The position numbers and the translations under genes were made by a program. 64,000 nucleotides of DNA from Bacteroidota bacterium (lineage in GTDB: Bacteria; Bacteroidota; Bacteroidia; NS11-12g; UBA955): contig JAGXTF010000118.1 of the NCBI GenBank assembly GCA_018333525.1, positions 62,001 to 126,000 of the forward strand, in the 5' to 3' direction. Below, piece after piece: positions 23,648 through 61,296 of this stretch (positions are counted from its first letter, which is position 1; each line of letters opens with the position of its first letter). Below the pieces are notes generated by a model that was not told where the DNA came from, made no database searches, and saw only the letters and a list, made by a program, of their open reading frames with translations.

Positions 23648-23704
23648 GCCGGAATTGTGATCCGGCCCTGCTGGCTATGAAAACTTAAATCTACCCAAGA
23701 CAAA
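23648..23704 (-). repeat. Hairpin plus conserved 30-nt repeat, copy 1
   Basis: On the minus strand a 30-nt segment (23675-23704, beginning TTTGTCTTGGGTAG) is followed by a GCCGGA/TCCGGC hairpin (23648-23666) and a T-rich tail. The 30-nt segment recurs at 58052-58081 with one mismatch, again followed by an unrelated hairpin and a T-run. It could be the 3' end of a small RNA or a dispersed repeat. The surrounding 373-base gap (23437-23809) contains no credible gene. Confidence 0.6.
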
Positions 23705-34751: not shown

Positions 34752-35951
34752 TTAAATAGTTGTACTTTTTGGTAAGTCTAAATGTTCTGGTGCTATGGTT
34801 ATGGCAGAGAATGGAGTAGAGGGTTTGCCATCAATTAATAACTTTAAAAAGATGGAATGATTTTCTAAATTGATAAAATCTTCTGCCTCAAATACGGGAT
34901 GCATTTCTTTCGCAAAAAACTGAGCATCCTGATATGAAAGCCTGAAACAAATCATGGTACCGACGTTGCCCAAGACGGCATCCCGGATTTTTTCGGTAAG
35001 CTGATTTAGATATTGGTGAGCCACGACAAATCCTATTTTGAACTTGCGTAGTTCTGAAAACATTTCCACGAGTGAAAGAGTTGTGTAATTGTGAAATTCG
35101 TCCAAATACACATAAAACGGTCTGCGTTTAGCTTCGGGCAATGACGCCCTGTTAAATCCCACAGAAGCTATTGTGCCAATAATTAGAGACCCCAGGAGGT
35201 ATGCCGCATCTCTTCCAATAGAGCCTTTTGCCATATTAACAATTAGTATTTTCCCATCATTGATAATACGTGAGAAGGAAATCTGTTCTTTGTTCTCAAC
35301 TAGTATTTTCTTGATAATTGGAATTGTTAAGAATCCGCCAATTTTGTTATAAACTGGTATTAAATCGGCCTTCCCATATTTCGGAAATTCATTAATCCAG
35401 AAATTTCGTACTTCTTCTGTCAGAATGTTCTTTATGCAGTTGGTGCGATATTCTTCATCATTCAGAATTTTGGGAATATCAGAAAAAGTAGCAGTTTCCT
35501 GATCAAGCAGAGTCAATAAGACATTGCGCAATGTATATTCAATCCTAGTACCCCAGGATTGGCTGCCCCAGATTTTCTCAAACACTTCAAGAATATGGGA
35601 AACTACCAAATGTCTGAATTGAAATGGTACTTTTCTTAAAGGATTGTATCCATAACAAATATGTGGGTTTGTGGCATCAAATAAAATAATATCATTTCGG
35701 TAGCGCGGATGTATCGTTTCCCGAATTTTTTCAGCAAGATCCCCGGCAATGTCAAAAATACAAGCACCTCGAAAACAATATATGTCCTGGAGTAATAAGG
35801 TTTCAATAAGGTTAGTTTTGCCAGTGCCAGTCTTACCAATAATATGTATTCCGACCATCCGATCATGTTGGTGAATGCCAAATACTGTGTTTTGGTTTCG
35901 AAAATTGACTTTTGCAAAATATGAAATGCTAGGTTTTAGTGATTTCATCAA
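34752..35951 (-). CDS. VirD4/HerA-like ATPase, short form
   Basis: 399 aa. Walker A I-G-K-T-G-T-G-K-T-N is at residues 38-47, followed by L-L-L-Q-D-I. Walker B F-Y-V-Y-L-D-E-F-H-N-Y is near residue 287. F-V-V-A-H-Q-Y-L-N-Q-L (sensor-type Q) and G-N-V-G-T-M-I-C-F-R also follow the pattern of VirD4/TraG and HerA pumps. No membrane helix is seen, so it is unlike a classical coupling protein. It lines up with the C-terminal half of the 992-aa ATPase at 40393-43371, so the element has two paralogues. Substrate handling during transfer or replication is the likely role, but no relaxase is nearby. Confidence 0.85.
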   Translation of the reverse strand: MMKSLKPSISYFAKVNFRNQNTVFGIHQHDRMVGIHIIGKTGTGKTNLIETLLLQDIYCFRGACIFDIAGDLAEKIRETIHPRYRNDIILFDATNPHICYGYNPLRKVPFQFRHLVVSHILEVFEKIWGSQSWGTRIEYTLRNVLLTLLDQETATFSDIPKILNDEEYRTNCIKNILTEEVRNFWINEFPKYGKADLIPVYNKIGGFLTIPIIKKILVENKEQISFSRIINDGKILIVNMAKGSIGRDAAYLLGSLIIGTIASVGFNRASLPEAKRRPFYVYLDEFHNYTTLSLVEMFSELRKFKIGFVVAHQYLNQLTEKIRDAVLGNVGTMICFRLSYQDAQFFAKEMHPVFEAEDFINLENHSIFLKLLIDGKPSTPFSAITIAPEHLDLPKSTTI

Positions 35952-36067: not shown

Positions 36068-37855
36068 TCATGCTGCTTTTTTGGTGTAACTTATTTTATT
36101 TTTTTGGTATAAATTACCCTTTGTCTTAAAACCTTTATCGTGTATAATGGAGTTTCGGACATTGGACAGCCAACGGAGCATAATAGGACAAGGGGTATCA
36201 AAAAGACCTTTTTGTCCTATGGTTATAAGGCTTTTTTCAGGTTCGAACACACCATATTTCTTATGAACTTTAGGAAGACCTGAAATAAATGCCCCCAGCC
36301 ATTCTGGGCATGAAAAATATAGATTTTTGTCGTCCCATATTAGGTTCGAACTCAATTTCTGTAAAAACTCTCTTTTCTCGAAATAATTGCCGTGATCCAT
36401 TATTTCTAACCCTGACGCACACATATCAAGAGTTTCATAGATTTCTTGGTACCAGTCAAATACTTCGTTCTCGCACTCAACTTTTCTCGCTGATGCTTTC
36501 AATTTTGCTGATTCGATTTGGTAATTATCTTCATCTATAGTGCCATTCAAATACACCGTGAGTAGGCGATCCAGCTTAATTTTAAGATCTTCCGCATTTT
36601 TACTTTTAATGAGCTCCATGTTTTTTTGAATTACCATGTCATCCCTTTTGAGAATTTCAAGGTGCTTTTTGGCCCAATTTGCCAAAGCTGGATGTATATT
36701 AAAATAATCCTTTATAAATTGTTTTAGAAAATAGTCGATCTGCTTTTCATCAATACTCTTATAAGGTAATTTTTCCCTTTTTTTCTTGTAATTATAGTAG
36801 TATGTGTAGGTCAAGTATTTGGGATTCTGCATCTCCTTTATTGGAACTTTGCATGCTGGACACTCAGTTTTGTTACTGTATGCAAATTTATGTTTGCAGT
36901 CGCAAATCACTTGGAGCTTGTGATCGGCGCCAATAAATTCTCCCTTACCGCCGAAAATAAATGACCGGTAAACACTTTGATGTTGATTTTTATTTGGTGT
37001 GGTTCTACCTGAGAGTATTGCACAAACCTTATAATATTCATGTTCAGTGATAATGCGGGGAATTTCCTTATTTAACTCCCTTCGATCCCTTTTAAAGCCA
37101 AACTTATCTGCACTGTGAAAAAATCCCGCATAAATCGGATTGGTTAAAACCACTTGCATATAGGAACGTGAAATTGGAGACCCTTTTGGATTTTCTTTGC
37201 TTGGTATCGTTAGATTCAGAATATCATGTGAATATTCCAGGATCGAATTTATAGAATCATTACCTTTTAAAAATTGCTTAAAGAGTTGCTGCACTTTATT
37301 GAACCTTTCTTGGTCCACTAACCAATCTCGATTGCCTTTTTCCTGCAATTTATTATTTATAAAGCCGAGAGGGGCTTTACCGGTAGGAAATCCTTTTTTA
37401 TATCGCTTCTCTAGGCCACTTTTTACAAATAAACTCTTGTCATCTGAGTCCTTTTTAGACATTGTGAATTCAATCTGGAGCATCATCTTGTCTGTGGGAT
37501 TATTAAAATAAATCCTTGTCGGGGTTTTGATATGATGAAGTTTGCCTATATCCATTAAGTATATAATTATTCCTGCATCTATTGAGTTACGAGACAGGCG
37601 ATTTGCATGCCAACAGAGCCAAGCATTTATCTTGCCTTTTTTAGTGAGGTCAATAAGATTTTTAAATCCACTGCGACCAATTGTGAAAGCGGACTTGGAT
37701 TCACGGATTGGAGTTCCGTAGATTCTTAAATTCTCCTTATGTTCAATTTCAACAAGGTCGTCAATTTGCCTTTCGATAGATTGGACTTGACGGTCCTCCG
37801 ATTCAGAAGATTTTCGGGCATACATTCCATAAGTAAATGAAGATATATATTCCAT
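36068..37855 (-). CDS. Second serine recombinase
   Basis: 595 aa from the ATG at 37855; the frame extends 20 codons upstream but those residues are hydrophobic and unlike the family. The resolvase domain begins Y-G-M-Y-A-R-K-S-S-E-S-E-D-R-Q, with Ser16 the expected nucleophile. A recombinase domain follows from about residue 165, then a zinc ribbon (C-D-C-K near residue 285; C-P-A-C about 15 residues on) and a coiled C-terminus. It lies inside the element, far from either end, directly upstream of the VirD4-like ATPase. It may act as a resolvase or invertase, or mark a second, nested element. No att-like duplication was found around it. Confidence 0.9.
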   Translation of the reverse strand: MEYISSFTYGMYARKSSESEDRQVQSIERQIDDLVEIEHKENLRIYGTPIRESKSAFTIGRSGFKNLIDLTKKGKINAWLCWHANRLSRNSIDAGIIIYLMDIGKLHHIKTPTRIYFNNPTDKMMLQIEFTMSKKDSDDKSLFVKSGLEKRYKKGFPTGKAPLGFINNKLQEKGNRDWLVDQERFNKVQQLFKQFLKGNDSINSILEYSHDILNLTIPSKENPKGSPISRSYMQVVLTNPIYAGFFHSADKFGFKRDRRELNKEIPRIITEHEYYKVCAILSGRTTPNKNQHQSVYRSFIFGGKGEFIGADHKLQVICDCKHKFAYSNKTECPACKVPIKEMQNPKYLTYTYYYNYKKKREKLPYKSIDEKQIDYFLKQFIKDYFNIHPALANWAKKHLEILKRDDMVIQKNMELIKSKNAEDLKIKLDRLLTVYLNGTIDEDNYQIESAKLKASARKVECENEVFDWYQEIYETLDMCASGLEIMDHGNYFEKREFLQKLSSNLIWDDKNLYFSCPEWLGAFISGLPKVHKKYGVFEPEKSLITIGQKGLFDTPCPIMLRWLSNVRNSIIHDKGFKTKGNLYQKNKISYTKKAA

Positions 37856-37902
37856 AGAGTAAAGATAAAAATAAAAAAGGGACAACAACTTTGAACTTTT
37901 AG

Positions 37903-37983
37903 TCGCCAGACTCAAAAGCAGGTTGTTGCCCCATCTTTACCCACAATGAGAATCATTATGGAATCTGCTTTTGAATCTGGCGA
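37903..37983. repeat. 22-bp inverted repeat upstream of the second recombinase
   Basis: The arms at 37903-37924 (TCGCCAGACTCAAAAGC...) and 37962-37983 are inverted copies, 20 of 22 positions matching, separated by 37 bases. The spacer contains a smaller palindrome, AATGA-GAA-TCATT. The repeat lies 48 bases before the recombinase start. It may be a recombination or operator site, or a strong hairpin in the leader. Confidence 0.6.
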
Positions 37984-40392: not shown

Positions 40393-43371
40393 ATGAATCA
40401 ATGGTCGGCCATTGAAAAAGCCACCGCCAATTTCTATGCCTGGGAAGAGCGCGGGCGAGGTTGGAGAGTGTTTGCTGATCATGTGCAATTGGAGCCGGTA
40501 TATGTGCCTTTCTTTCCATTTCAGGAGGATAAACCGGAGATAAAGGATGATGGCAAAATACCAACGATCCCGAGCCGTGTCTTTTCATTTCTTGGGAGAA
40601 TAGGACAAAGCGCCCAACAGAGTAAAGAACCCTCTTATGCAGAGGTTCTAGACGAACTCTACGAGCATCATGCATATGAGTTTTCCGAGAATGCGCCCTT
40701 AGTTGGATTTACAATCCTGTTTCCGAATGGATGTTTGCTTTCCTCGGAACTGTTCATTCAATTTCTTTTCATGCTCTCAGACACTCAATACCCGATTAGT
40801 TTTGAGATCATTGGAGAGGAGAAAAAGATCACCATCCAGATTGTTTGCCGAAAACCGGATGCCTTCCGAGTGAATTCGCAGCTAAATGCTTACTTCCATG
40901 AAGCTATCATCCGAGAAAATTCTGACACAGTTAGAAATATTATAGATCCTGAATTGCGTGTCAGAACATTGGATTTTGGCCTAGCCAACGAATCCACATT
41001 GCCAATTGAACAATTTGGCAAAAAGAAAAGCGACCAGTTCCAAAGTCTCTTCGGTCTGCTGGATTACCTTAAGACCAATGAACGTATTGTTCTGCAAGTC
41101 CTTTTCCAAGGGGTGTTAAATCCGTGGAGTACGAGCATCATTAACTCACTGACAAGCTCGGACGGAACCTGTTTCTTCATGGATGCACCGGAAATGCTTC
41201 CTTTGGCCATTGAGAAGACGGCAAGTCCCTTATTCAGTGCTGTAATCCGTGTGGCAGTTCAAGCCGAAACTGTGGAGCAAACTGAACGACTGATGCAGGA
41301 ATCCATTGCCTGCATGGTCAGCCAATCGAAATCAAGTGTAAATCAGTTAATACCTCTGAAATCAGAAGAGAGACTTGGTGACAGTCAGATTGCCGATTTC
41401 ATTTCAAGAAAATCTCACAGATTGGGAATGCTTCTCAATACTGCGGAACTGGCAACATTTGTTCATTATCCCGATGCTTCCATCGTATCAGCCAAACTCA
41501 ATCAACAAAATCAGAAAACAAAACAAGCTCCTGCCAGCCATAATGGCCATCTTTACATCATCGGTGAAAATGTTCATTTGGATACTGGGCAAGAAGTATC
41601 TCTCGACATTCAGCAGCGATTGCGCCACTTACACATAATTGGAGCAACCGGCACCGGAAAGTCCACGTTACTGACCAACTTGATTGCCCAGGACATGAAA
41701 GCTGGGCATGGTCTCGCATTGCTTGATCCTCACGGAGACTTGGTGGAAGATGTTTTGGGCCTTATACCAGAGAATAGAATCAATGATGTCGTGCTGGTTG
41801 ATCCATCAGACACGGAGTTTCCAATCGGATTGAATTTGTTATCTGCCAAATCTGAGATTGAAAAAATCGTATTGTCTTCGGATTTAGTAGCCGGTATTCG
41901 GAGGCAGTCCACAAGTTGGGGTGATCAGATGACGGCAATCCTAGGTAATGCGATAAATGTGTTTCTTGAAAGCGACACAGGCGGGACTCTATTTGACCTG
42001 CGGCGTTTTTTAGTTGAGGATAGTTTCCGAAAGCAGTTTTTAAAATCGATTCGTGATCCAACAATTACGAACTTTTGGCAGCACGAATATGCCATGCTCC
42101 GCAAAGCAGCGATTGCACCAATCCTAATCCGCCTTGATACATTTCTGCGTCCCAAGATCATTAGAAATATGATGGCCCAGAAGGATGGACTGGACTTTAC
42201 TGATTTGCTAGCCCAAAACAAGATTATTCTGGTCAAGTTGTCCCAAGGTCTCATTGGAGAAGAGAATAGTCATTTACTGGGAACACTGATCGTGGCCAAA
42301 ATACAGCAGGCCTCTCAAGCCAGACAGGCAATTGCTCAGTCGGATCGAAAACCATTTTTCCTCTATCTGGACGAATTTCAAAATTTTAGCACACCCTCCA
42401 TGTCAGCGATGCTATCCGGCTCGCGCAAGTATGGTCTGGGTCTTATTCTTGCCCATCAGGATATGGAGCAAGTCAGTAAATACGATGCAGAGTTAGCCAA
42501 TTCAGTACTCTCTAATCCGGCTACCAGGATTTGCTTTCGGGTCGGCGATACCGATGCTCGTCAATTGGAAAGAGGTTTTAGCTATTTTGATGCAAGCGAT
42601 TTGCAGAATCTTCGCGTTGGACAAGCCATTGCCAAGGTGGAAACCGCTTCACAGGATTTTAATATTTCAACTTCAAAAATTCCAATTGTCGGGGTAGAAG
42701 AAAAAACGGCTATTCGTGAGCAATGTCTTCTACAATCGCGCAATAAGTATGCGACCCCTCGTGATATTGTTGAGCAACGCATCTTTGAAATGTTCGGGGG
42801 TGTTTCTTCAGAACCTGAACCGCCGCCTAAAAGAGTGGAACCGGAAGTAATAGTGGAGACTCCAGAAGATAGACATGTTGATAGAGGCATAGAAGAGCAA
42901 ACGGCTGAGTTCATCCAAAATACCGAGGAACGCAATGTTGTTACAGAACATCGACGGCTGCAAGCGTTAATTAAGAAAATGGCTGAGAACCATGGGTTCA
43001 AAGCTGTAATTGAAGAACCAATTAATAATGGTAAAGGTAGAGTGGATGTAGGTCTTACCAAGGATTCATTGAGAATTGCGGTTGAGGTATCTGTGACCAA
43101 TACTGAACCTTATGAACTTGGGAATATCTTGAAGTGCCTTGAGGCAGGATATTCACCTGTAATCATGTGCAGCCCCAATGAAAAGCACCTTTTAGAAATC
43201 AAGACTAGTGCGGCAGCCAAGTTGAACAAGGACCATTTGCTGAATGTCTTATTTCACAGTCCCGAAGAGCTTTTTAATCACTTAATCACTTTAACGCTGA
43301 AGGAACATCAAAACGAGCAAAGAATTAAGGGTTACAGGGTTAAGGTAACGTATAAGACTCCTAATTCTTAA
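40393..43371 (+). CDS. VirD4/HerA-like ATPase, long form with C-terminal nuclease-like domain
   Basis: 992 aa. An N-terminal domain of about 390 residues without recognisable motifs is followed by Walker A I-G-A-T-G-T-G-K-S-T near residue 415 and Walker B F-F-L-Y-L-D-E-F-Q-N-F near 655. A-H-Q-D-M-E-Q (sensor) and R-I-C-F-R come next. The C-terminal 150 residues contain R-V-D-V-G-L and I-A-V-E-V-S-V, spaced as in PD-(D/E)xK folds, so a degenerate nuclease or DNA-binding domain is likely. The ATPase half is paralogous to 34752-35951. In the type IV secretion families such ATPases move DNA; here no pore genes or relaxase are present. No membrane helix is evident. Confidence 0.85.
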   Translation: MNQWSAIEKATANFYAWEERGRGWRVFADHVQLEPVYVPFFPFQEDKPEIKDDGKIPTIPSRVFSFLGRIGQSAQQSKEPSYAEVLDELYEHHAYEFSENAPLVGFTILFPNGCLLSSELFIQFLFMLSDTQYPISFEIIGEEKKITIQIVCRKPDAFRVNSQLNAYFHEAIIRENSDTVRNIIDPELRVRTLDFGLANESTLPIEQFGKKKSDQFQSLFGLLDYLKTNERIVLQVLFQGVLNPWSTSIINSLTSSDGTCFFMDAPEMLPLAIEKTASPLFSAVIRVAVQAETVEQTERLMQESIACMVSQSKSSVNQLIPLKSEERLGDSQIADFISRKSHRLGMLLNTAELATFVHYPDASIVSAKLNQQNQKTKQAPASHNGHLYIIGENVHLDTGQEVSLDIQQRLRHLHIIGATGTGKSTLLTNLIAQDMKAGHGLALLDPHGDLVEDVLGLIPENRINDVVLVDPSDTEFPIGLNLLSAKSEIEKIVLSSDLVAGIRRQSTSWGDQMTAILGNAINVFLESDTGGTLFDLRRFLVEDSFRKQFLKSIRDPTITNFWQHEYAMLRKAAIAPILIRLDTFLRPKIIRNMMAQKDGLDFTDLLAQNKIILVKLSQGLIGEENSHLLGTLIVAKIQQASQARQAIAQSDRKPFFLYLDEFQNFSTPSMSAMLSGSRKYGLGLILAHQDMEQVSKYDAELANSVLSNPATRICFRVGDTDARQLERGFSYFDASDLQNLRVGQAIAKVETASQDFNISTSKIPIVGVEEKTAIREQCLLQSRNKYATPRDIVEQRIFEMFGGVSSEPEPPPKRVEPEVIVETPEDRHVDRGIEEQTAEFIQNTEERNVVTEHRRLQALIKKMAENHGFKAVIEEPINNGKGRVDVGLTKDSLRIAVEVSVTNTEPYELGNILKCLEAGYSPVIMCSPNEKHLLEIKTSAAAKLNKDHLLNVLFHSPEELFNHLITLTLKEHQNEQRIKGYRVKVTYKTPNS

Positions 43372-51073: not shown

Positions 51074-51334
51074 TTATTCAAGAAAAAGGTTGATTTTTAC
51101 TTGGTAACGTAAATCAGGTAAACACCGGCCATTCTCCCAGTTTGTAATCGTATCCTCGGTGACCCCAAGAGTGGCGGCGACATCTTTTTGAAGAAGTCCA
51201 CGGTCCATTCGGACCTTTCTAATCTTCTGACCTAAGGTCTTAGGATTTGCGGGATAACCAGGGATTGGGCGTTTTTGGGCCTTTAGGTCGATATTGCAAA
51301 TAGTCAACGCAACTGTGACGCCAAGCTTATGCAT
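51074..51334 (-). CDS. XRE-family HTH, paralogue of the right-end HTH
   Basis: 86 aa. I-P-G-Y-P-A-N-P-K-T-L-G-Q-K-I-R-K and L-L-Q-K-D-V-A, then G-V-T-E-D-T-I-T-N-W-E-N-G-R form a compact HTH. It is nearly the same as the HTH at 60554-60856 from residue 8 onward, and the nucleotide match continues into the N-terminal codons. Those N-terminal codons contain TCAACGCAACTG at 51304-51315, 9 of 12 bases like the attP arm at 60796-60807. The gene is therefore a second copy of the right-end module. Upstream of it lie 216 bases with no other gene. Confidence 0.82.
   Translation of the reverse strand: MHKLGVTVALTICNIDLKAQKRPIPGYPANPKTLGQKIRKVRMDRGLLQKDVAATLGVTEDTITNWENGRCLPDLRYQVKINLFLE
51304..51317 (+). 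other. Degenerate att half-site
   Basis: TCAACGCAACTG (51304-51315) followed by TG matches the attP/attR arm GCAACGCATCTA followed by TG at 9 of 12 positions, at the same place relative to the HTH frame as in the right-end copy. The sequence beyond the TG does not resemble comM. Confidence 0.5.
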
Positions 51335-51485
51335 TTAGCCTAAATCGTGAACTTGAAAATTGTTTAAACGAATAAATTAAAGAAATGATTAGGAAAATCC
51401 TCTTAGTGGAAGTTAGAAAAATAGGCATTTTCCAAGCCAAGTCATTTCATCGTTTTTTCGAGATACTTTTGAAATAAAGAGTAAT

Positions 51486-52349
51486 TTATTTTAAAACGAT
51501 AAACTCACCATTCGTAATTACACCTTTAGAATTCATTACCGAATAAAGATATAATCCATTGCCCAAGTCCTTGCAGTCAATATCACAATTTAATTCAAAT
51601 TGTGTTATGCTACAAATGGTGCCATTTGGTTCAAAAATTGTAAGAGTATTCATAATTCCGCTGTTAACAGCAAAATGAACTATTCCAGATGTTGGATTTG
51701 GATAGCAGGTAACAAGCGGAGAATTTTGATATGTCTGAGTTCCCATTGCATTATCAGACATTTCCAAATCATCTATGACCAATCGACTTCCAAAATGTGC
51801 AACATTCTTATCAGTTTCAGTCACAAAGTTTAGTTCCAAAGTTGTTGGTGCTTCAATCTTAAGGTAGTTCAATACAACAAAAATCTTGGTATACACATTT
51901 TGTATTGGCAAATAAATCCATTGATCAATAATTGTGTTGCCGGTAATGTCATTGGTGCACCAAATATGTGCCGCCGCGGTGTCATTGCTTACTGAATTAA
52001 ACTTATACCAGAAACTAAAATATTTCGGTGTTTCTTTAAAAGGAATGCCTGAAGCAAAATAAGAGCTGTCAGAGGTCATTACATGTGCAGATCCTAGTTG
52101 AATTCCACTGCAGTCGGCATTTCTTAATTCAAGGGCAAAATTGCCACTATGAGCATCTTTACTTGTGAAGTAAAAGGCACTATCCAGTTTACAATATTGG
52201 GAAGAATCCGTGTAAGGTAATGGAGTTATACTACCCCAAAACTTAGGGTTTCCATCGCTTCTTAAAGACTCAAAGCCAGGATTTAGAATTTGAGCAGAGC
52301 CAAATTCTGCAATTGTGAAGCTTAACAGAATTAAAATTAATTTTTTCAT
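51486..52349 (-). CDS. Secreted protein with T9SS sorting domain
   Basis: 287 aa. Signal peptide at residues 1-19 (cleaved near G-S-A-Q). The body opens I-L-N-P-G-F-E, a start often seen in carbohydrate-binding-type (CBM/jelly-roll) domains, and contains Y-F-S-F-W-Y-K-F. The tail is a short type A T9SS domain (C-Y-P-N-P-T-S-G, L-G-N-G-L-Y-L-Y-S). The likely location is the cell surface. It is the third T9SS protein of the element and stands alone, read away from the next gene at 52465. Confidence 0.78.
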   Translation of the reverse strand: MKKLILILLSFTIAEFGSAQILNPGFESLRSDGNPKFWGSITPLPYTDSSQYCKLDSAFYFTSKDAHSGNFALELRNADCSGIQLGSAHVMTSDSSYFASGIPFKETPKYFSFWYKFNSVSNDTAAAHIWCTNDITGNTIIDQWIYLPIQNVYTKIFVVLNYLKIEAPTTLELNFVTETDKNVAHFGSRLVIDDLEMSDNAMGTQTYQNSPLVTCYPNPTSGIVHFAVNSGIMNTLTIFEPNGTICSITQFELNCDIDCKDLGNGLYLYSVMNSKGVITNGEFIVLK

Positions 52350-52464
52350 AATGCAATTAATCTTTTATTAGATTCAGGTTAGCCATAAATACGTCAATTA
52401 AATACCCCAGTACCCATACATGTAATAACACGGATATGGTCGTCATCATAATATGACAATTTGA

Positions 52465-52920
52465 TTGCAACTGCTTGACTATATTTTTACAAATGTTCTG
52501 CTTTCTCTTGTTCAAGGCAATGCATATTTGAAACCTAATTTGATGGCAGAAACATTAGAATATATTGGTCATTCCAGATTGGAAAATCAAAGTTTAAGAA
52601 ATATTCTTTCGGAATTGAATTTCAATTTGTTATTAGAGATGAGTTATAAATCCATTGACGATCTTACAGAATCCGATTTTGAATCCATCGGTCTGTTGCG
52701 CCTTGTGCAGGTTGAGGGCTATTATTATGCCTGCAAGGATTTTTCTGGAAATACCAGATATTTTGTACGCGAAAGGAACCAGATGTGTTTTCAATGCCCA
52801 GCATCGGGTAAACCAAGACTCATATATTCAACTCGAGAGCTGATACTTGATGTAGTCCTAAACTGGAGATTAAAAGGTCTTGGTTTATATATAGAAATGA
52901 TGGAAAGAGGTTCTGATTAA
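52465..52920 (+). CDS. Hypothetical protein, TTG start
   Basis: 151 aa from a TTG at 52465. Without that start the frame begins at an ATG 26 codons later and gives 125 aa. The frame is mixed alpha/beta, with Y-Y-Y-A-C-K-D-F-S-G-N-T-R-Y and a C-F-Q-C-P-A-S pair that could bind metal. It is convergent with the receiver gene at 52978. No family is recognised. Length and even base use make it a likely gene, but the start is open. Confidence 0.55.
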   Translation: MQLLDYIFTNVLLSLVQGNAYLKPNLMAETLEYIGHSRLENQSLRNILSELNFNLLLEMSYKSIDDLTESDFESIGLLRLVQVEGYYYACKDFSGNTRYFVRERNQMCFQCPASGKPRLIYSTRELILDVVLNWRLKGLGLYIEMMERGSD

Positions 52921-52977
52921 CCATCTTCAAAGTACTATTTAAAATTGTCAATAGTGCTTTTGAAAAGATAAATTGAT

Positions 52978-53391
52978 TTAAGGACGCATCATATTCAAAT
53001 TTTGTAACAATGCATCAAGTTTTTCCAAACTCAATGGTTTGGAAATAAATTCAACTATACTTGGATTGTCCTTGGCGCGATCTTCGTCGCGACTATCAAT
53101 GGACGAAGAAAGCATATAAATTCTTATACTTTGTTTGGCTGTGTCCGGAAGTGCATCGAAACCCCTAAGAAAATCCCATCCTGACATGCCTGGCATATTC
53201 ACATCGAGAAAAAGTATTGTTTTTTCATTTGGATTAGTAATTATGAATTCATTTATTAGAAAATCAAGCGCCAGCCTTGGTTGGCTAAAGGGTACTACAG
53301 TTGCTTCAGGAAGAAGTCTACGAATGATAATTTTGGAGACTAACAAAAAGCCTTCATCATCATCAATAAGGATAATTCTATGTATACTCAT
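52978..53391 (-). CDS. Stand-alone response-regulator receiver
   Basis: 137 aa, a single CheY-like domain. The acidic pair D-D-D (residues 10-12), the phospho-acceptor F-L-D-V-N-M-P-G near residue 63, the S/T switch M-L-S-S-S-I and the K of F-I-S-K-P are all present. It is the last gene of FIST-kinase-receiver: the kinase stop and this start overlap by one base. The 59396-59788 receiver is a paralogue (S-S-I-D-x-R-D near the end). Output should be protein-protein, since there is no DNA-binding domain. Confidence 0.9.
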   Translation of the reverse strand: MSIHRIILIDDDEGFLLVSKIIIRRLLPEATVVPFSQPRLALDFLINEFIITNPNEKTILFLDVNMPGMSGWDFLRGFDALPDTAKQSIRIYMLSSSIDSRDEDRAKDNPSIVEFISKPLSLEKLDALLQNLNMMRP

Positions 53392-55862
53392 TAATCATTA
53401 AGATAGATTTTAAAAGTTGTTCCAACACCAATTTCACTTTCTACTTCAATCTTTCCACCAAGGGATGTTACTTGGGATTTTGTCATAAATAATCCCACTC
53501 CTTTACCTTCATGAGTGGAATGAAATCTTTTGTATAGTCCGAATAATTGACCATTTAGGGCATCCATATCCATACCTAGACCATTGTCGGTAAATGTCAA
53601 TAATAACCCATCACGAGTTTTTGTTCCAAGTATATTAATTTCTGGAATCCTATTGGGATTGTGATACTTTATGCTATTGGATATTAAGTTGTAGAAGATG
53701 CTGTGTATATAACTTCGGATAGAAGTGATATTTTGTACTTCGATAAAATTATATGTGAGTCGTACCTTGTTTTTTTCAAACAATTCCGAAATGCTACTGC
53801 GTATATCTTCAACTAAATCTTCCAATATTATTGGTTCTTTCCTATCTTGTAACTGTCGTTTTACATGAAGAATTTGGTTCAGATCCTGAATAACACTATC
53901 AAGTCTGGTTGTAGATGTGTTTATCTCTTTTAAAATTGTTATGCGCTCTTCAGTTGTCAAATCATCAAATAACAACAGTGAATCTGAATAGGCCATTAAA
54001 TTGGCAACAGGTGAGCGCAGATTATGAGAAACAATAAAAGCAAATTGTTCTAAGTCATTTTTTTGGGCTATTAAGTCATTTGTGATTTTTTCCCTTTCGA
54101 TTTCAGCTTGCTTACTTTGAGTCATATTTGTCATAGCGCCAACCATCCTTACTGGAGTGTCATCCTCTCGTAAAATATATCCCTTATCATGTATGAAAGC
54201 GAGATCTCCATTTTTCATTATAATTCTGTATTCAGATTCCCAGAAAATACTTTTTTCATTTTCAAGAGCATTTGATATTTCTCTTTTTACACGTTCCTTA
54301 TCATCTTGATGTATTAAGGTAATCCAAGAATCAATGTGTTGAAATTCAGCTTGTGAATAACCAGTTAGATCATAAAAGTTGTCAGAACGAAATAAACTAT
54401 CCGAGATAACATCCCAGTCCCAGATAACATCGTTAGTTGCTTTCATCACTAGTTCATATCGCTCATTGTTAAGTCTTATCGACTCTTCAATTCGTTTTCT
54501 CTCTGAAATATTGATTGCGCCGATACTTAATCCAGTGACCACTCCATATTCTGTAACAATCGGATGCATGCTAACCTGGAGCCAGGTATCCCCGTGTTTT
54601 TGACTATAATATAGGACTTCGTATCTTAATGCATTCCTTTGTGATAGAACTTGACCAATCTTTATTTCGACCTCCTCGCGCCTTGTTCCATGCATAAGTT
54701 CAACATAATTCAGCCCGGGTTTAAGATTAGTTTGAAACTGATCAAGTGCTAATTGCATTGCCAAATTATTATAAGCAACGATTTGTGCATTACGATCAAG
54801 CAAAACATAGGCAGTATCCGAATTTTCAAGTATATTTCTAAAGTGAGCCTTTGTTTCCGCCAAACGCAATTCAGCATATTTACGCGAGGTAATATCTTGA
54901 ACTGTCCCAACTAATCTGGCTGGTTTGCTATTATCGTCTCCTAGCTCCAAACCCCAAGCGCTATCTATCCAACGAACTTGAGAGTCTTGCAGCACAATAC
55001 GATAATCGATTGAGTTTCTCTGCCCTGGGTTATTAAAAGTTTGGTAAATTGCTCTAATAACTGCAGATTGATCTTCTGGATGTAACAATCCTAGAAAATC
55101 ATCATATGTTACATCAATATTTGTATTATTAAATCCTAGAATTCGATATACTTCCTCGGACCACTTTATCGGATTTTTTGCAATGTCCTCCGTATTTGAC
55201 AAAATCATTTCCCAACTTCCGAACTTTGCCATTCTTTGAGCATCGGCCATAAGTTCACGACTTTGTTGGAGTTTTATGTCGGCTAGTTTCCTGTGGGTTA
55301 CGTCTTTAGAAGTTCCGTCAATGCGAACAAGCTTACCATATTCGTCCAAAGTGGGTATGACCTTGTTTTCAATCCATTTTGTTTCGCCGTTTTTATGAAT
55401 TATCCGGTATTCATTTGTAATCGTTTTTCCAGCTGAAAGTTCTGCGACCTGATGCTCTACAATATGTTGATCATCATCATGTATTAATCTCATCCATAAT
55501 GAGTTATCCTCGATAAAGTTCTCTGGAGGATATCCATAGAGTGTGTAACAATACTCTGACATGTGTGTTACAGTATATCGCTGCATATCCACAGAGAAAA
55601 CAACTTCCTCAATATTATTAAATACCATACTGAGTTCCGCATTCTTTTTCTCAAGCTCTGCCTTTTCTGCCCGAAGCGTGCTATGTAGTTCAACCATTTC
55701 ATCTGAGCAAAGTTCAATGGTACGTTCAAGCATTTTCCTATCCTTATCGCAATGTTCTAGGGCTTCGGCTATTGAGTTAAATAGGGTTTGATATTCAATC
55801 GGAATAACATACCCATCGCCGAGGTGCTTTGTTACTAATCTATAAAGTAATTTATTATACAA
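53391..55862 (-). CDS. Sensor histidine kinase with four PAS domains
   Basis: 823 aa and soluble, with no membrane segment. A coiled N-terminus (about 40-85) leads to four PAS/PAC units over about 85-195, 205-325, 335-465 and 470-600. The DHp box is F-I-V-S-H-N-L-R-S-P-V, with His near 615. The CA domain has F-Y-N-L-I-S-N-S-I-K-Y-H, T-D-N-G-L-G-M-D and G-K-G-V-G-L-F. It lies between the FIST gene (3-base gap) and the receiver. The FIST protein is a likely sensory input and the receiver a likely output. The ligand is unknown. Confidence 0.92.
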   Translation of the reverse strand: MYNKLLYRLVTKHLGDGYVIPIEYQTLFNSIAEALEHCDKDRKMLERTIELCSDEMVELHSTLRAEKAELEKKNAELSMVFNNIEEVVFSVDMQRYTVTHMSEYCYTLYGYPPENFIEDNSLWMRLIHDDDQHIVEHQVAELSAGKTITNEYRIIHKNGETKWIENKVIPTLDEYGKLVRIDGTSKDVTHRKLADIKLQQSRELMADAQRMAKFGSWEMILSNTEDIAKNPIKWSEEVYRILGFNNTNIDVTYDDFLGLLHPEDQSAVIRAIYQTFNNPGQRNSIDYRIVLQDSQVRWIDSAWGLELGDDNSKPARLVGTVQDITSRKYAELRLAETKAHFRNILENSDTAYVLLDRNAQIVAYNNLAMQLALDQFQTNLKPGLNYVELMHGTRREEVEIKIGQVLSQRNALRYEVLYYSQKHGDTWLQVSMHPIVTEYGVVTGLSIGAINISERKRIEESIRLNNERYELVMKATNDVIWDWDVISDSLFRSDNFYDLTGYSQAEFQHIDSWITLIHQDDKERVKREISNALENEKSIFWESEYRIIMKNGDLAFIHDKGYILREDDTPVRMVGAMTNMTQSKQAEIEREKITNDLIAQKNDLEQFAFIVSHNLRSPVANLMAYSDSLLLFDDLTTEERITILKEINTSTTRLDSVIQDLNQILHVKRQLQDRKEPIILEDLVEDIRSSISELFEKNKVRLTYNFIEVQNITSIRSYIHSIFYNLISNSIKYHNPNRIPEINILGTKTRDGLLLTFTDNGLGMDMDALNGQLFGLYKRFHSTHEGKGVGLFMTKSQVTSLGGKIEVESEIGVGTTFKIYLND

Positions 55863-55865
55863 AAG

Positions 55866-57020
55866 TTAATCTTCTGAAATCGTAGTAATTGTCATGGTTT
55901 GATTGTGTAGTTCACACTTCATGAACTCGAATGTCGGAGAAATCTCACCATAAGAATAGAAACCGGTAATAATTGTTTGAGGTCCATATACTTCTCGCAC
56001 TGTTTCTATCTCTTCTTCAATTCTTTTGTCAAGTACCAGTTTACGACCTACACAGCTGATAAGAATTGCTAGTTCTGGATTTCGATTACCTAAAATACTG
56101 TGTTTTGCGGCTATATTGGCGCCTTCAACTAAGCGATCAAGATTCGCTTTCATCAATCGAGCATAATTACCTTCAGGCATATTACCAGCAAATATGAGAG
56201 ATTTTGTTTCTTCATCAATTGAAAGGATAGTTCTTACCAGCGACGTGTCACTATCAGTTGATCGTATACTTAATGGGAATAATAATGCAGATCCCGGTAA
56301 TTCTGATGCAAAATCCCCAAGATATAATTTATAAACGTCTAAGGCAGGTTTATGGTCTAATTCATAAAGAATATTGTCTTTACTTCGGGTTATAAATCTT
56401 TCAGGGCCAAAAGAATCCCATCCACCGATACTTCCATAAGTTATAGTAATGGAATCTCCATAAAAGCCCACTGCAGCGACCCGACCAGATCTAGGTTCTT
56501 CATTTAATCCTACAAGAGTCTCTTTAAAGCTATTTCCATCCCCAGATAATCCACCTGTTATAATTACATTTTTTGGAAAATGCTCATATAACCCACGGAC
56601 TAACTCGCTGCCGTTTACCTCATGCCCATCCGATACCACAAGCACATATTGCAGTTTTGCGCCGTTTAATTGAGTCGCTAATTTTTTTCCTACAGCATAA
56701 CTATCTTCCTCATGTTTAATATCAGCGACAGCAACAGCATGTTTGGAATTTTGTAATGCAATTGCTACTAATGAAATACTGCTGTCTAAAACTTGAACAT
56801 CTGCAATTTCACCTGCCGTAGAGGCTATAAGAATATCAGCGGATACAAATTGCTCTTTAATTTGTTTATAAATTGCACCTTGTTCAAGTAAAGATTTTGC
56901 CGAAAATGCCAGCACTAATTGGAAGTTATCTAATGGAAGGTCCGAAGAACGCAGAGTTTTCCAACCAGAATCAGTAGAAAAAGTTTGTTGTAAGATATGC
57001 ATTTTACCTTCAAAAGACAA
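55866..57020 (-). CDS. FIST N/C-domain sensory protein
   Basis: 384 aa. The FIST N-terminal domain is at about residues 30-225 (A-S-T-A-G-E-I, G-G-L-S-G-D-G, V-G-F-Y-G-D) and FIST_C at about 230-375 (A-L-D-V-Y-K-L-Y-L-G, F-A-G-N-M-P-E-G, S-C-V-G-R, G-F-Y-S-Y-G-E-I). FIST proteins bind small ligands, and NosP-type members carry haem and sense nitric oxide, controlling a neighbouring kinase. No haem-ligand residue can be assigned here. It is the first gene of the operon with the kinase; a second in-frame ATG (57002) is also possible. The 376 bases upstream (57021-57396) are AT-rich with no gene. Confidence 0.88.
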   Translation of the reverse strand: MSFEGKMHILQQTFSTDSGWKTLRSSDLPLDNFQLVLAFSAKSLLEQGAIYKQIKEQFVSADILIASTAGEIADVQVLDSSISLVAIALQNSKHAVAVADIKHEEDSYAVGKKLATQLNGAKLQYVLVVSDGHEVNGSELVRGLYEHFPKNVIITGGLSGDGNSFKETLVGLNEEPRSGRVAAVGFYGDSITITYGSIGGWDSFGPERFITRSKDNILYELDHKPALDVYKLYLGDFASELPGSALLFPLSIRSTDSDTSLVRTILSIDEETKSLIFAGNMPEGNYARLMKANLDRLVEGANIAAKHSILGNRNPELAILISCVGRKLVLDKRIEEEIETVREVYGPQTIITGFYSYGEISPTFEFMKCELHNQTMTITTISED

Positions 57021-57396
57021 AAATACAAAATATCATTGTAAAATTATGGTAGTCTATATTTTTAAGATAAACCTCATTTGAGTTGAACTTTTGAATGTAA
57101 TTTTCGAGATAGAAAAAATAAGTGACCTAATCCAAAGACCCGGCTTTGATTTACGAAAATTTATATGTAGTAAGTACTAAGACAGAATATAGCTAATTAA
57201 TACAAGAAAGCAGGATTAAGTTGTCAACACGTTCATTGCGACCACAACTCAAAAAACACCGGGAATTCAATTTTAGGACAACTACCAGCCTTAGAAAGTT
57301 TAAATAATACAATGTGCCATCTGGTTTTTAGACTTGAAAATGAGAGGATGGTATTTTTTAAGACGGATAAAATTTAATAAAACTGAATCGACACTC

Positions 57397-57897
57397 TTAA
57401 AATAGTCCTTCGTCTGCCAATGAAAGATATCCTTCTGAAGTTAGAATTAGGTGATCAAGTAACTTTAAATCCATGTATTCAGAAGCCACTTTTAATTTCT
57501 GAGTGATGGATATATCAGCATCTGATGGTTTGCAATTGCCACTTGGGTGGTTATGAGAGAGAATAATTCCTGTCGCGTTGGTTTTTATTGCCAGTTGAAA
57601 AATCTCTTTGTAGTTAACCACAACTCCGGAAGTTGAACCTAAACCTATTTGGCTCACTCCTAAACAATAATTTGCATGATTGAGTAGATGGACATAGAAC
57701 ATCTCTTTAAAACCAATCTTACGCATATCATAGGCTTTTAAGAGGCAGTTATATGCATCCTCTGAGGAATTAAATTTTATGGGGTGCAATGCCAACTGGT
57801 AATTGTAAATGATTTCCATCTCATGTAGGATTGGCCTTTCTAAGGCTTCACTTTCTCCATGGAATTTGTTGGTTCTTTTACTGCATAAAATGCCCAA
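57397..57897 (-). CDS. radC: RadC-like JAB/MPN domain protein
   Basis: 166 aa. The metal-binding motif S-H-N-H-P-S-G-N-C-K-P-S-D-A-D near residue 115 is complete. The family is frequent on mobile elements; the role is undetermined despite its name. It lacks the N-terminal helix-hairpin-helix domain of full-length chromosomal RadC, as most element copies do. It is monocistronic and lies between the sensory operon and the repeat copy at 58022-58081. Confidence 0.88.
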   Translation of the reverse strand: MGILCSKRTNKFHGESEALERPILHEMEIIYNYQLALHPIKFNSSEDAYNCLLKAYDMRKIGFKEMFYVHLLNHANYCLGVSQIGLGSTSGVVVNYKEIFQLAIKTNATGIILSHNHPSGNCKPSDADISITQKLKVASEYMDLKLLDHLILTSEGYLSLADEGLF

Positions 57898-58021
57898 AGG
57901 CTTTCAAGGTATGTGATTATGTCAGAAAAGCAAGGAGGAATCCAAAAGGAGCATTCCTTGATGTCTGATAAACATTCCCTTGTATTGCATGGTTAAGGAT
58001 AGAAAGATCAATACAAAAAAT

Positions 58022-58081
58022 GGCGAAGCTGGACCCATCCAACCTCGCCTGCTATGAAAACTTAAATCTACCCACGACAAA
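58022..58081 (-). repeat. Hairpin plus conserved 30-nt repeat, copy 2
   Basis: 58052-58081 matches 23675-23704 at 29 of 30 bases (C for A at one position). On the minus strand it is followed by GGCGA/TCGCC with an inner TGGA/TCCA stem (58022-58049) and TTTTTT. The gap 57898-58457 has no other convincing gene; the short frame through the repeat is conserved only because the bases are. Confidence 0.6.
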
Positions 58082-58457
58082 AATACGCAATCCAGTGCAT
58101 CATTATTGGTGTATTGGTAAAGTAAAAAGAGTAGTTCATAAAGTTCTAATGCTAATATGCTGATAATTTTGTCTGACAAAGTGGTTAAATTGAAAAGAAT
58201 TTTATATTTGTATTTGAAACGATCTGAAGCTGTTGTTTTGTGACAATAGCTAAGTTAATGACCTTATTCCCTCTGAGTGTGTTGCCTTTGTAATAAAGGA
58301 GCAGCTCAGTATTGTTTCCAAAAAAAGAATTTTATTATGCAAACAATAAGACCTTCACCTGGTGGAATTTAGATTCGACCACCTTTGATTATCCGCTGAA
58401 CGAATTAATGGTGTGTATCAAGTTCAGTAAAAAAAATAAAATACTAAAATAAAAATT

Positions 58458-58841
58458 ATGAAATCGACACTATTAAAACTGTACATTGTTATTGCCCTTG
58501 GCTGTAGTTCTGTTATTGCGAAAGCTGATTTTTTGTTAATTGTTAACCCTACCGGGCCAATGCCGTCATGCACATTCAACTATACGGTTTGGGATGCAAA
58601 TGGAGTTGCAATATATTCCGGCAATAATTTCAATCCACCGCCGACAACATGCATTTCAACATCTCTAACACCTTCTTACATAACCTTTAGCGTGGGTACA
58701 TGTGGATCTTACACTATGAATATTAATTCATCTGTTTGGGCTTGCAACCCTCCAGATCCCTGCTATGGCCTAAAGAGCAATACCTGGGCGCAGAATGGCA
58801 TCTGTTCTCCAAACGGAGATGTACTCACGATAAATATTTAG
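58458..58841 (+). CDS. Small secreted Cys-rich protein
   Basis: 127 aa. Signal peptide at residues 1-23 (cleaved near A-K-A), leaving about 104 residues with six cysteines, P-P-T-T-C, C-G-S-Y-T and a C-N-P-P-D-P-C-Y-G cluster. The fold is probably a small disulphide-stapled beta sandwich. It has an A-rich leader, a perfect 15-bp terminator 60 bases after the stop and no partner, so it should be expressed on its own, possibly at a high level. The function is unknown; a secreted toxin, adhesin or decoy is possible. Confidence 0.65.
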   Translation: MKSTLLKLYIVIALGCSSVIAKADFLLIVNPTGPMPSCTFNYTVWDANGVAIYSGNNFNPPPTTCISTSLTPSYITFSVGTCGSYTMNINSSVWACNPPDPCYGLKSNTWAQNGICSPNGDVLTINI

Positions 58842-58905
58842 AATTTCGTATTTTATCGAATGAGTCTTTCGATTGAATAAAACGGATGTATTTATTGAAA
58901 ATTTA

Positions 58906-58953
58906 GCAAAGCAGTCAGACATTAGTCTGACTGCTTTGCAAGGAGAATTTTTT
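58906..58953 (+). terminator. Strong rho-independent terminator after the secreted Cys-rich gene
   Basis: 58906-58920 and 58925-58939 pair perfectly over 15 bases with an ATTA loop, followed by a run of eight or more T. The gap continues to 59395 with no credible gene: the 81-codon frame there is hydrophobic without start or family. Confidence 0.88.
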
Positions 58954-59395
58954 TTACAAATAAATAAATGGATGTTTTAAAGGCACACTCCAAATTATTA
59001 GGTATTTTAATTTTAGAGTCCATCAAACATTGAGGTCCTAGCTTGCATAACAAAAGAGCTTTTTAAATGTGACTTTGGGGTAAATATGTTGGAAATGTAA
59101 TTGATTAATACTGAATCAATTTTCTGGCACCCTTGTAAATGAATTTGACTCTAAACATGAATTCTGTAAAAAATGTACCTGGAACTGAAATGTATATTTC
59201 ATTATGATACTTATAATATCGTTTTAGTTATATATAATTTGCATTTTAGATATTTGACATCCAATCTCCTATTGATTTTAAAGATTTTGTATTTAAGAAA
59301 TTTTGGTTTTCCTATTGTATCATTAGGATTTTTTATTATCTTCGTTCAACAGAATTCTCACTTAACCTTTGTGTTGAAACTTTTAGTAGTACAGA

Positions 59396-59788
59396 ATGAA
59401 TATTCTACTTATAGATGACGATAAAAGTTTTTTATTTGTAAATTCTTTAATTTTAGGCAAATTAAAGTATATAAATAACATAAATAAGCACAGCAATGTT
59501 CAGGATGCTGTTTCCTTTATTAAAAGTGATTTTGAAAAAGAAGGCAGAATTCCAGATTTAATTCTATTGGATATTAATATGCCAGTGTTAGATGGCTTTG
59601 ATTTTTTACATTTAGTACAGGATTTTAGAGAGGACCTTAAAAAAAAGCTTAAAGTCGCAATGCTTACATCCTCTATTGATCCACGCGATAAACAATTATC
59701 TTTTAAATTTCCTCAGGTAATCGAATTTTTCGAAAAACCACTTAATTTGGAAAAATTTGAATCAACGATAAAAAGAATTTCAAATTGA
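59396..59788 (+). CDS. Stand-alone response-regulator receiver, second copy
   Basis: 130 aa. L-L-I-D-D-D-K at the N-terminus, the phospho-acceptor L-L-D-I-N-M-P-V near residue 60, the switch M-L-T-S-S-I and F-F-E-K-P are in place. It is a paralogue of 52978-53391 (shared S-S-I-D-x-R-D and the order of helices). Its partner appears to be the PAS/DHp protein 37 bases downstream and not a full kinase. A phospho-donor would have to come from elsewhere, possibly the kinase at 53391. Confidence 0.85.
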   Translation: MNILLIDDDKSFLFVNSLILGKLKYINNINKHSNVQDAVSFIKSDFEKEGRIPDLILLDINMPVLDGFDFLHLVQDFREDLKKKLKVAMLTSSIDPRDKQLSFKFPQVIEFFEKPLNLEKFESTIKRISN

Positions 59789-59825
59789 GAATAATCTGCT
59801 AAAAATATAGAACTTAAAACTACCA

Positions 59826-60398
59826 ATGATAAGTTTTGATATTATTGACCATGTTCGAGAAGGATTTCAAATTATTTCAAATGAATGGAAATATCTTTAC
59901 TTAAATCTCAAGAGTATAGAACATAGCCGATTTAGAAGGGAGGATTTAATAGGGAAATCGATGATGGAGGTTTATCCAGGAATTGAAAATACGGATATGT
60001 TTCGTCGTCTTGAAGACTCTATGAGAACAGGTTCAACACATATTTTTGAAAATGAATTTACTTACCCAGATGGTTTTAAAGATTGGTTTGAATTGCATGT
60101 GCTACCTGTGCCTGATGGTTTACTAATTATCTCAATTAACATAAGCGAAAGAAAAAAAATAGAATCATTCAAAGAAAAATATACAGGCGAATTAGAGGAA
60201 CTAATACACTTTATGACACACCAAATTAGACACCCAATCACAGTAATAATGAGCATAGAATCATTGTCTAATAATGGAAAAATGACAAATGAAGATTTGG
60301 AAATAGCGATTAAAGTTATGAAAGAGAGTATTGCAAAACTGGACAATTTGACCAGAATACTTATGAAAAGACTCAACAAAATAGTTGTTGACGGATAA
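59826..60398 (+). CDS. PAS/DHp protein lacking the kinase ATPase domain
   Basis: 190 aa. The PAS domain is at about 5-115 (V-R-E-G-F-Q-I-I-S, Y-L-Y-L-N, I-G-K-S-M-M-E-V-Y-P). It is followed by a DHp helix with the H-box F-M-T-H-Q-I-R-H-P-I-T near residue 140. The protein ends after the second DHp helix. The CA (HATPase) domain is absent, and the 155 bases between the stop and the right-end HTH cannot hold it in any frame. It may be a phosphotransfer protein or a product of truncation. It is coupled by position to the receiver 37 bases upstream. Confidence 0.78.
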   Translation: MISFDIIDHVREGFQIISNEWKYLYLNLKSIEHSRFRREDLIGKSMMEVYPGIENTDMFRRLEDSMRTGSTHIFENEFTYPDGFKDWFELHVLPVPDGLLIISINISERKKIESFKEKYTGELEELIHFMTHQIRHPITVIMSIESLSNNGKMTNEDLEIAIKVMKESIAKLDNLTRILMKRLNKIVVDG

Positions 60399-60553
60399 TA
60401 GATTTCAAAAGTCATAAACATAAAGAAGTACGGAGGTTTTTTCAGGCTACGGAATGTAGGTACATGCTTTCCTTAACTTAGTTATTTGCTGAATTCTAAT
60501 TTTACATGGCCGAAATTCCGGGAAGCCTACACTTACAGATCGGCCTAAAAAGT

Positions 60554-60856
60554 TTACATTTTGATTTCCTGAAGGAAGAGTTGGATTTTGGGTCCGTGGC
60601 CAGAATGAGGCTGACGTCGTCCATTTTCCCAATTGGTAATTGTACACTCGGTTACCCCAAGGATCATGGCTACATCCTTTTGTAGAAGCCCCTTGTCCAT
60701 TCTTGTCTTTCTAATTCTCTGACCAAAGGTTTGAGGGTTCATTGGATATCCGGGAATCTTGCGTTTTTTGGCATTTAGGATGATATGACCAAATGGCAAC
60801 GCATCTATGTCCCTGTGGCTATTACAACCACCCTGACCGGGATTGCGTTTGCGCAC
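60554..60856 (-). CDS. XRE-family HTH at the right end, continuous with int in the excised circle
   Basis: The frame gives 100 aa, but only the 84 residues before the stop belong to the element; the first 16 or so codons are comM antisense. I-P-G-Y-P-M-N-P-Q-T-F-G-Q-R-I-R-K, L-L-Q-K-D-V-A and G-V-T-E-C-T-I-T-N-W-E-N-G-R define the HTH. Joining the ends at TGT places this frame directly behind the integrase codon 493, with no stop, giving a 577-residue protein. In the integrated state a TTG at 60797-60799 or the comM-derived ATG at 60854-60856 must serve as start. It has a paralogue at 51074-51334. Confidence 0.82.
   Translation of the reverse strand: MRKRNPGQGGCNSHRDIDALPFGHIILNAKKRKIPGYPMNPQTFGQRIRKTRMDKGLLQKDVAMILGVTECTITNWENGRRQPHSGHGPKIQLFLQEIKM
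60796..60820 (+). other. attR: right junction of the element
   Basis: The element arm GCAACGCATCTA (60796-60807) meets comM CCCTGTGGC across TGT (60808-60810). Joined to the left-end arm it gives a near-palindrome: 10 of 12 positions match the reverse complement of TAGTTGTGTTGC, around a central TG. Confidence 0.85.
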
Positions 60857-61296
60857 CGGGAGTGGTAAACAGATATTTGAGTAAAATCAGTGGTCCTTTA
60901 TTGGACAGGATTGATATTCATATTGAAGTAACGCCTGTTTCTTTTGATGAATTAACTGCAAGAAAACGAAGTTCAGAAAACAGTGCTGATGTGCGAAAAA
61001 GGGTGATGGTTGCCAGAGAAATTCAGCAAAAAAGATATGCGGATTCTGAGGGAATTTATTGCAATGCGCAATTGCCCAGCAACCGTGTACAGGAGGTTTG
61101 CGAAATTGATTCAGCAGGAGCAACTTTATTAAAAACTGCCATGCAAAGATTGAATTTAAGTGCCCGCGCTTACGACAGAATTCTAAAAGTAAGCCGCACC
61201 ATTGCAGACATGGCAGGCAGCGAAAATATAAAAGTGGAACATCTGGCAGAGGCCATTCACTACAGGAGTTTGGACAGGGAGAATTGGGGCGGGTGA
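60808..61296 (+). pseudogene. comM: comM, 3' part
   Basis: 163 codons including stop, beginning C-P-C-G-Y-Y-N-H-P (rest of sensor-1), then L-L-D-R-I-D-I-H-I-E-V and the C-terminal lid with the arginine finger region R-A-Y-D-R-I-L-K-V-S-R. The frame is that of the 5' part at 16471-17550. An ATG at 60793 in the element is in frame and could start translation of this fragment, but it lacks the Walker motifs. It is convergent with the right-end HTH. The gene is recoverable by precise excision. Confidence 0.92.

Follow-up and report, generated by a model that had tools for sequence, protein, structure and literature searches.

A large serine recombinase gene that appears to be split at its own attachment site in comM-integrated elements of Bacteroidota, with a probable second severed tail inside one element

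Attachment (att) sites located inside the integrase gene were reported to be a feature of archaeal tyrosine integrases alone (PMC8371274). In these 'suicidal' integrases (SSV1, pTN3, pT26-2) the gene is split upon integration, the att codons vary while preserving the reading frame, and related elements may recombine to give chimeric integrases (PMC8371274). Here we examine a 64,000-nucleotide stretch of a Bacteroidota bacterium genome (assembly GCA_018333525.1, contig JAGXTF010000118.1, positions 62,001 to 126,000; hereafter the window), in which an element inserted in comM/yifB, a Mg-chelatase-like gene, seems to share this anatomy. The enzyme is a large serine recombinase (LSR) rather than a tyrosine recombinase, and the hosts are bacteria (Mucilaginibacter and others in the window's phylum) rather than archaea. 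The archaeal halves are inactive (PMC8371274), whereas in the window only a C-terminal helix-turn-helix (HTH) domain would be lost and the whole catalytic part appears to be kept. No bacterial or serine case of an att site inside an integrase gene was found in the open-licence papers searched.

LSR elements in comM are familiar, and, of predicted site-specific LSRs, 12.4% target comM/Mg-chelatase (PMC10083194). These elements, including that of phage WO sr1WO (PMC9203015), resemble the window in enzyme class, target gene, and short core, but none of the papers searched describes for them a recombinase gene with attP inside it, or an HTH domain cut from it; HTH_XRE genes are present at the 3' end of phage WO sr1WO. 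Engineered fusions of an integrase and a recombination directionality factor (RDF; PMC6511857; PDB 9dxd YokA-YotN) likewise join an LSR to a small C-terminal regulatory domain. Such fusions were made to drive the reverse reaction (PMC6511857), and 9dxd is one built on the SPbeta integrase. The fusion considered here, by contrast, is natural, and integration would break it, which runs contrary to the needs of a fused excision factor. A natural protein with Resolvase, Recombinase, and two C-terminal HTH domains is the 695-aa serine recombinase of Paenibacillus phage Harrison (KT361651; L081 1462-3549). It differs in belonging to a Firmicutes phage, and an inverted-repeat scan within its gene returned short palindromes only, nothing comparable to the att palindrome described below.

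The comM element occupies window positions 17535-60807. It separates a left half of comM (16471-17534, + strand), which ends ...ATG AAT CCC TG with the core TG at 17533-17534, from a right half (60808-61296, +) that begins TGT CCC TGT GGC ...; rejoined, the flanks form an open 517-aa comM with a terminal stop only. The shared dinucleotide is TG on the comM sense strand. At the left end a 501-aa LSR (17507-19012, -) with Pfam Resolvase and Recombinase domains (PF00239, 2.1e-29; PF07508, 2.4e-18) reads outward into comM; its own codons stop at the core and its last 8-9 codons are comM antisense. At the right end a small HTH frame, HTH2 (60554-60856, -), reads inward. The element half of attL is the left arm TAGTTGTGTTGCT (17535-17547), with a similar arm in genomes G536, G314, G190, and G534, and attR contains the right half-site GGCAACGCATCTA-TG (60795-60809). 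An inverted repeat arises only when the ends of the whole element are joined, with 10/13 matching positions versus 3-4/13 at attL and attR. The locus has the features of an LSR element, namely a recombinase adjoining one att end, a short core, an inverted-repeat attP, and a target restored by joining the flanks.

The genes at the two ends appear to be parts of one. On the LSR strand, the left junction reads ...AAG CAA CAC AAC TA|CA, where the recombinase's own codons finish, and the right junction reads CA|TA GAT GCG TTG CCA, where the HTH begins; joining LSR and HTH2 at the 2-bp core gives a single open frame, ...KQHNY-IDALPFGHIILNAKKRKIPGYP.... Both ends were readable for comM elements in the window, G536 (Mucilaginibacter sp. 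X4EP1), G314, G190 (on two contigs), G534, G268, G577 (stacked), G771, G616, and G761. Codon phase before the core was equal on the LSR and HTH sides in 10/10 pairs, phase 2 in nine and phase 1 in the inverted G268; the G761 pair in this count consists of two contig ends, which may belong to two stacked elements. An uninterrupted LSR-HTH open reading frame (ORF) was also detected. Contig G761:C11 encodes 637 aa from an ATG, with Pfam Resolvase, Recombinase, and HTH_3 domains, and holds the attP-like palindrome CCAACACAACCT-CA-TCCACGCGTTGCC internally; the same genome also has a split LSR/HTH copy at comM. The ten equal phases and the uninterrupted G761 gene place attP inside the recombinase gene, so that integration would sever the C-terminal HTH. 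On the reading frames, the recombinase and HTH are one predicted gene when attP is intact, whether G761:C11 is a circle or the joint of a stack. Homology to the solved SPbeta integrase covers LSR residues 46-465, wholly within the part kept at attL, and the att codons fall at about residues 489-497 of the fused protein.

Some comM insertions are inversely oriented (G268, L056/L104; G616, L124/L125; G577:C7, L131). Their core is TG, not CA, on the recombinase strand, and the change of core dinucleotide accompanies the reversed orientation in each.

A second HTH, HTH1 (51074-51334, -), lies within the window's element. Both HTHs score as XRE-type domains in Pfam, and the family resembles XRE regulators only, with no NCBIfam model above cut-off. 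A previous reading of the window from its letters alone, here the sequence-only reading, had reported that the pair aligns without gaps from the att arm onward. This holds, coordinates included, and over 78 aa the two are 65% identical (pairwise E=5e-35); DNA likeness begins at the arm, runs at 20-24/30 in most stretches within the gene, and drops to a chance-level 7-13/30 above 51339. The ATG start at 51334 falls outside the homologous region. That reading had also located an arm copy with 9 of 12 bases and the TG retained, correctly so: TCAACGCAACTG at 51304-51315 matches GCAACGCATCTA at 9/12 bases, and TG follows at 51316-51317, the position of the crossover dinucleotide. Taken alone, arm plus TG is not significant, as three other places in the window have >=12/15 matches and 0.93 are expected per shuffled window. 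The arm copy is meaningful because it stands in gapless register with homologous HTH coding sequence. The 3.7-Mb host genome has no further copy that rises above background, and the HTH is under purifying selection (dN/dS, the ratio of nonsynonymous to synonymous substitution rates, 0.22 for HTH1/HTH2, 0.16 and 0.14 for two other pairs).

Since attP lies inside the recombinase gene of this family, HTH1 can be read as the severed C-terminal XRE-type domain of a related recombinase (51074-51317, -; phase 2 relative to the core). Pfam and the junction frames assign HTH2 (60554-60809, -) to the same class, as the putative severed domain at the current right end. The sequence-only reading was right about the homologous pair but missed that the two HTHs would be recombinase C-termini rather than independent genes. 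We assign a probability of roughly 0.88 to the split-gene anatomy with HTH1 as a severed recombinase tail. Several observations weigh against it. G761:C11 is the single natural fusion found, and its contig is not closed, so it could be a tandem-array joint instead of a circle. The G616 pair is in phase, but a stop codon lies in its recombinase ~30 nt before the core. Several genomes have the HTH without a recognisable LSR, as orphans or tails of other recombinases. The ten pairs are not fully independent, because just one departs from phase 2. To the right of HTH1, an LSR ORF or remnant and a left arm were sought and neither was found. Finally, an AlphaFold model of the natural fusion is of low confidence beyond residue 457; its linker and HTH are poorly predicted because the alignment there had only LSR rows, and we did not use the model as evidence.

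A search for the HTH among 146 close relatives gave just three weak matches, so relatives were sought throughout the phylum. In a sample of 394 other genomes the HTH occurs in 13 and the LSR in seven, six of which have both (Fisher p=2.4e-9). The HTH directly abuts a comM half in 9/13 of these HTH genomes, at the same comM site in many families. This bears on the condition under which the sequence-only reading would have fallen, namely HTHs in unrelated contexts with no element end, and it speaks for that reading. Other neighbours do occur. In Mucilaginibacter frigoritolerans (L012, 9554-10414) the family HTH directly adjoins a phage lysozyme gene that is interrupted close to its start, possibly a second target, and no LSR of the comM-element family was found in that genome; in G183 it abuts an apparent lamin-tail-domain gene, as read from sequence only. 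A scan of genome contigs with HTH1 and HTH2 as queries gave five loci, two real (Mucilaginibacter) and three chance peptide matches in Corynebacterium. Among viral contigs there was no HTH and there were two LSRs, one of them at comM; four matches to attP patterns there were dismissed as chance, without a fused gene. The plasmids searched contained no fused LSR of this family; an HTH on a Tolypothrix plasmid adjoins HerA-like and NurA genes and was rejected as an element end.

Two loci, L054 (G370:C14 17067-25831) and L055 (G150:C35 17658-20942), have an intact comM beside an HTH that abuts an extra comM right-half fragment. No recognisable recombinase of the comM-element family was found at either, and on their gene content both are putative element remnants beside a restored comM. 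At L047 (G395:C285 859-2361) the comM left half continues in frame into the HTH as an open frame of 523 aa and may represent a comM-HTH chimera.

Our preferred reading of HTH1 is that it forms the right end of a complete, related element. It retains the core TG and phase 2, and joining the window LSR to it in frame gives a 573-aa open frame. The inner 33.8-kb unit so delimited (17535-51317) has the LSR at its left and the HTH1 half-site at its right, and its arms form a 9/13 inverted repeat, compared with 10/13 for the whole element and 3/13 for the outer 9.5 kb alone. Stacks of such elements exist in comM. In G577, LSR_B runs directly into HTH_A and LSR_A abuts comM, and two more HTH ends face each other head to head. 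The other comM half of G577 lies on a different contig, directly next to a third recombinase. The arrangement expected of a tandem array, the LSR of one element adjoining the HTH end of the next, is thus seen in G577; the window has no LSR right of HTH1 and is therefore a decayed stack at best. The sequence-only reading took HTH1 for the end of an older, related element, and this has good support from the HTH family as an end marker, the retained TG and phase, and the stacks in comM. Head-to-head HTH ends meet across a palindromic joint, as if right ends were joined, at G577:C5 46728-47218 (L130; joint sequence GCAACGCAACCACATGGTTGCGTTGC) and G183:C3 113698-114176 (L051).

HTH1 might instead be an internal duplication of the HTH end, produced by homologous recombination between related elements. 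The trees are compatible with this, since HTH1 groups with HTH2 as its sister (support 98/94), and the two HTHs of G534 (inner and outer) and those of G761 pair up likewise. So is the DNA beyond the old right half-site, GTCAACGCAACTG-TG (51303-51317), which continues as unrelated sequence (ACGCCAAGC...) that is neither comM nor a left arm. However, the DNA likeness stops at the core region, as for a site-specific joint, and the inner HTH of G534, 17.6 kb from the end, likewise retains core and arm with unrelated DNA beyond. We consider a duplication unlikely.

The outer 9.5-kb module (51318-60794) encodes a type IX secretion system (T9SS)-sorted protein, response regulators, PAS kinases, FIST, RadC, and a secreted Cys-rich protein. 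It looks like an accretion beyond HTH1, with HTH2 now the right end. That it was added by a second event, as the sequence-only reading had suggested, is plausible and unproven, given the lack of a recombinase remnant, a left arm, or a base-composition step at 51.3 kb. The further suggestion that it might move as a unit is not supported: joining 51318 to 60807 yields a 3/13 inverted repeat with no recombinase, so a circle of the module alone was rejected as unable to make attP. The likeliest reading, held at about even odds, is that the DNA between the HTHs is the remains of an outer stack partner that lost its recombinase end. A rival account that we still take seriously, about as unlikely as duplication, is that the 9.5 kb is host or foreign DNA that flanked the 33.8-kb unit at a non-comM target and was carried along when the outer related end was used for excision. 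The DNA past the TG of HTH1 is indeed not comM, and family HTHs abut other genes too (the cut phage lysozyme gene of L012 and the apparent lamin-tail-domain gene of G183). Yet no recognisable cut target gene lies right of 51317, the module content is mobile-element in style (RadC), and the single module ORF tested (52465-52920) had no match in the relatives searched.

Other features of the window touch on its architecture. A large TraD/VirD4-like ATPase (40393-43371) has counterparts ~1-9 kb from the HTH end in G616, G761, G771, G577, and G190. Its distance from the outer HTH is large in the window and in G534, a pattern that additions at the right-hand side would produce. Positions 36068-37915 and 34752-35951 hold a second serine recombinase beside a TraD-like ATPase. 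Because a weakly similar recombinase beside a homologous ATPase adjoins the LSR in both G761 elements, this pair looks like element backbone. A 45-bp direct repeat (23660-23704 and 58037-58081) recurs in part at three places on two other host contigs and is a dispersed genomic repeat.

One could also take the HTH for a gene of its own, coding for a regulator or an excisionase and overlapping the right att arm with its 5' end by chance, so that the palindromic arms would account for the in-frame joining; we judge this improbable. HTH ORFs do have possible starts of their own (ATG in G536; TTG in the arm GCGTTG), and orphan HTHs persist without an LSR. The phases are nevertheless equal in all ten pairs, the phase-1 pair included, a natural fused ORF exists in G761, and upstream of the core, where likeness stops, there is no homologous start site. 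It is very improbable that the arm copy matches by coincidence and that HTH1 is simply an ordinary XRE regulator: 12/15 matches to arm plus TG do arise by chance about once per window, but the gapless register with HTH2, the correct TG and phase, and the comM-abutting distribution of the HTH family all disfavour it.

We hypothesize that the circular form of these elements carries one gene, encoding an LSR of ~485 aa, made up of catalytic, Recombinase, and coiled-coil parts, and, C-terminal to it, an XRE-type HTH domain. Its attP would be an imperfect inverted repeat with ~13-bp arms around a CA/TG core, located in the codons ...QHN-(L/Y/F)IPALPF... between LSR and HTH. Recombination with attB in comM (AAYCCC-TG-TCCCTGYGG), which we infer to occur at the TG/CA core from the anatomy of the ten pairs, would split the gene: the recombinase would stay at attL, with 8-9 antisense-comM codons as its new end, and the HTH would stay at attR, at the far end. 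In a carrier such as G536, the predicted in-frame circle joint is ...AACACAACCT-CA-TCCCTGCGTTG, and the circle would make the fused LSR-HTH protein. HTH1 would derive from a related element that had entered comM earlier at this same position, with HTH2 as the present right end.

The trimmed recombinase should keep catalysis because all SPbeta-aligned parts are retained at attL, and it is probably not dead. Tentatively, we suggest that removal of the HTH changes recombinase activity, as an integration-coupled switch of direction or of self-regulation. A more specific version, which we hold with still less confidence, has full-length LSR-HTH limited to integration (attP x attB); by cutting its own gene the enzyme would take on a different directionality, and the severed HTH would act in trans as a regulator or excision factor. 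The HTH is unlikely to be simply a fused excision factor because the natural fusion exists only while attP is intact. A role in superinfection immunity was also considered and is disfavoured by the G577 stacks.

The comM elements would thus provide a bacterial serine recombinase with att inside its own gene, across several families and with the catalytic part retained. Severed tails would explain small HTH genes without a consistent start at island ends, and the HTH tail may serve as a simple marker for element ends and stacked elements. Because the copy in an integrated element is trimmed, LSRs mined from genomes as engineering tools may be missing their native C-terminus. The arrangement also makes testable whether the C-terminal domain sets recombination direction in serine integrases. 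If the switch reading is true, the enzyme would be a bacterial integrase that trims itself, with the state of its own DNA deciding the direction in which it works.
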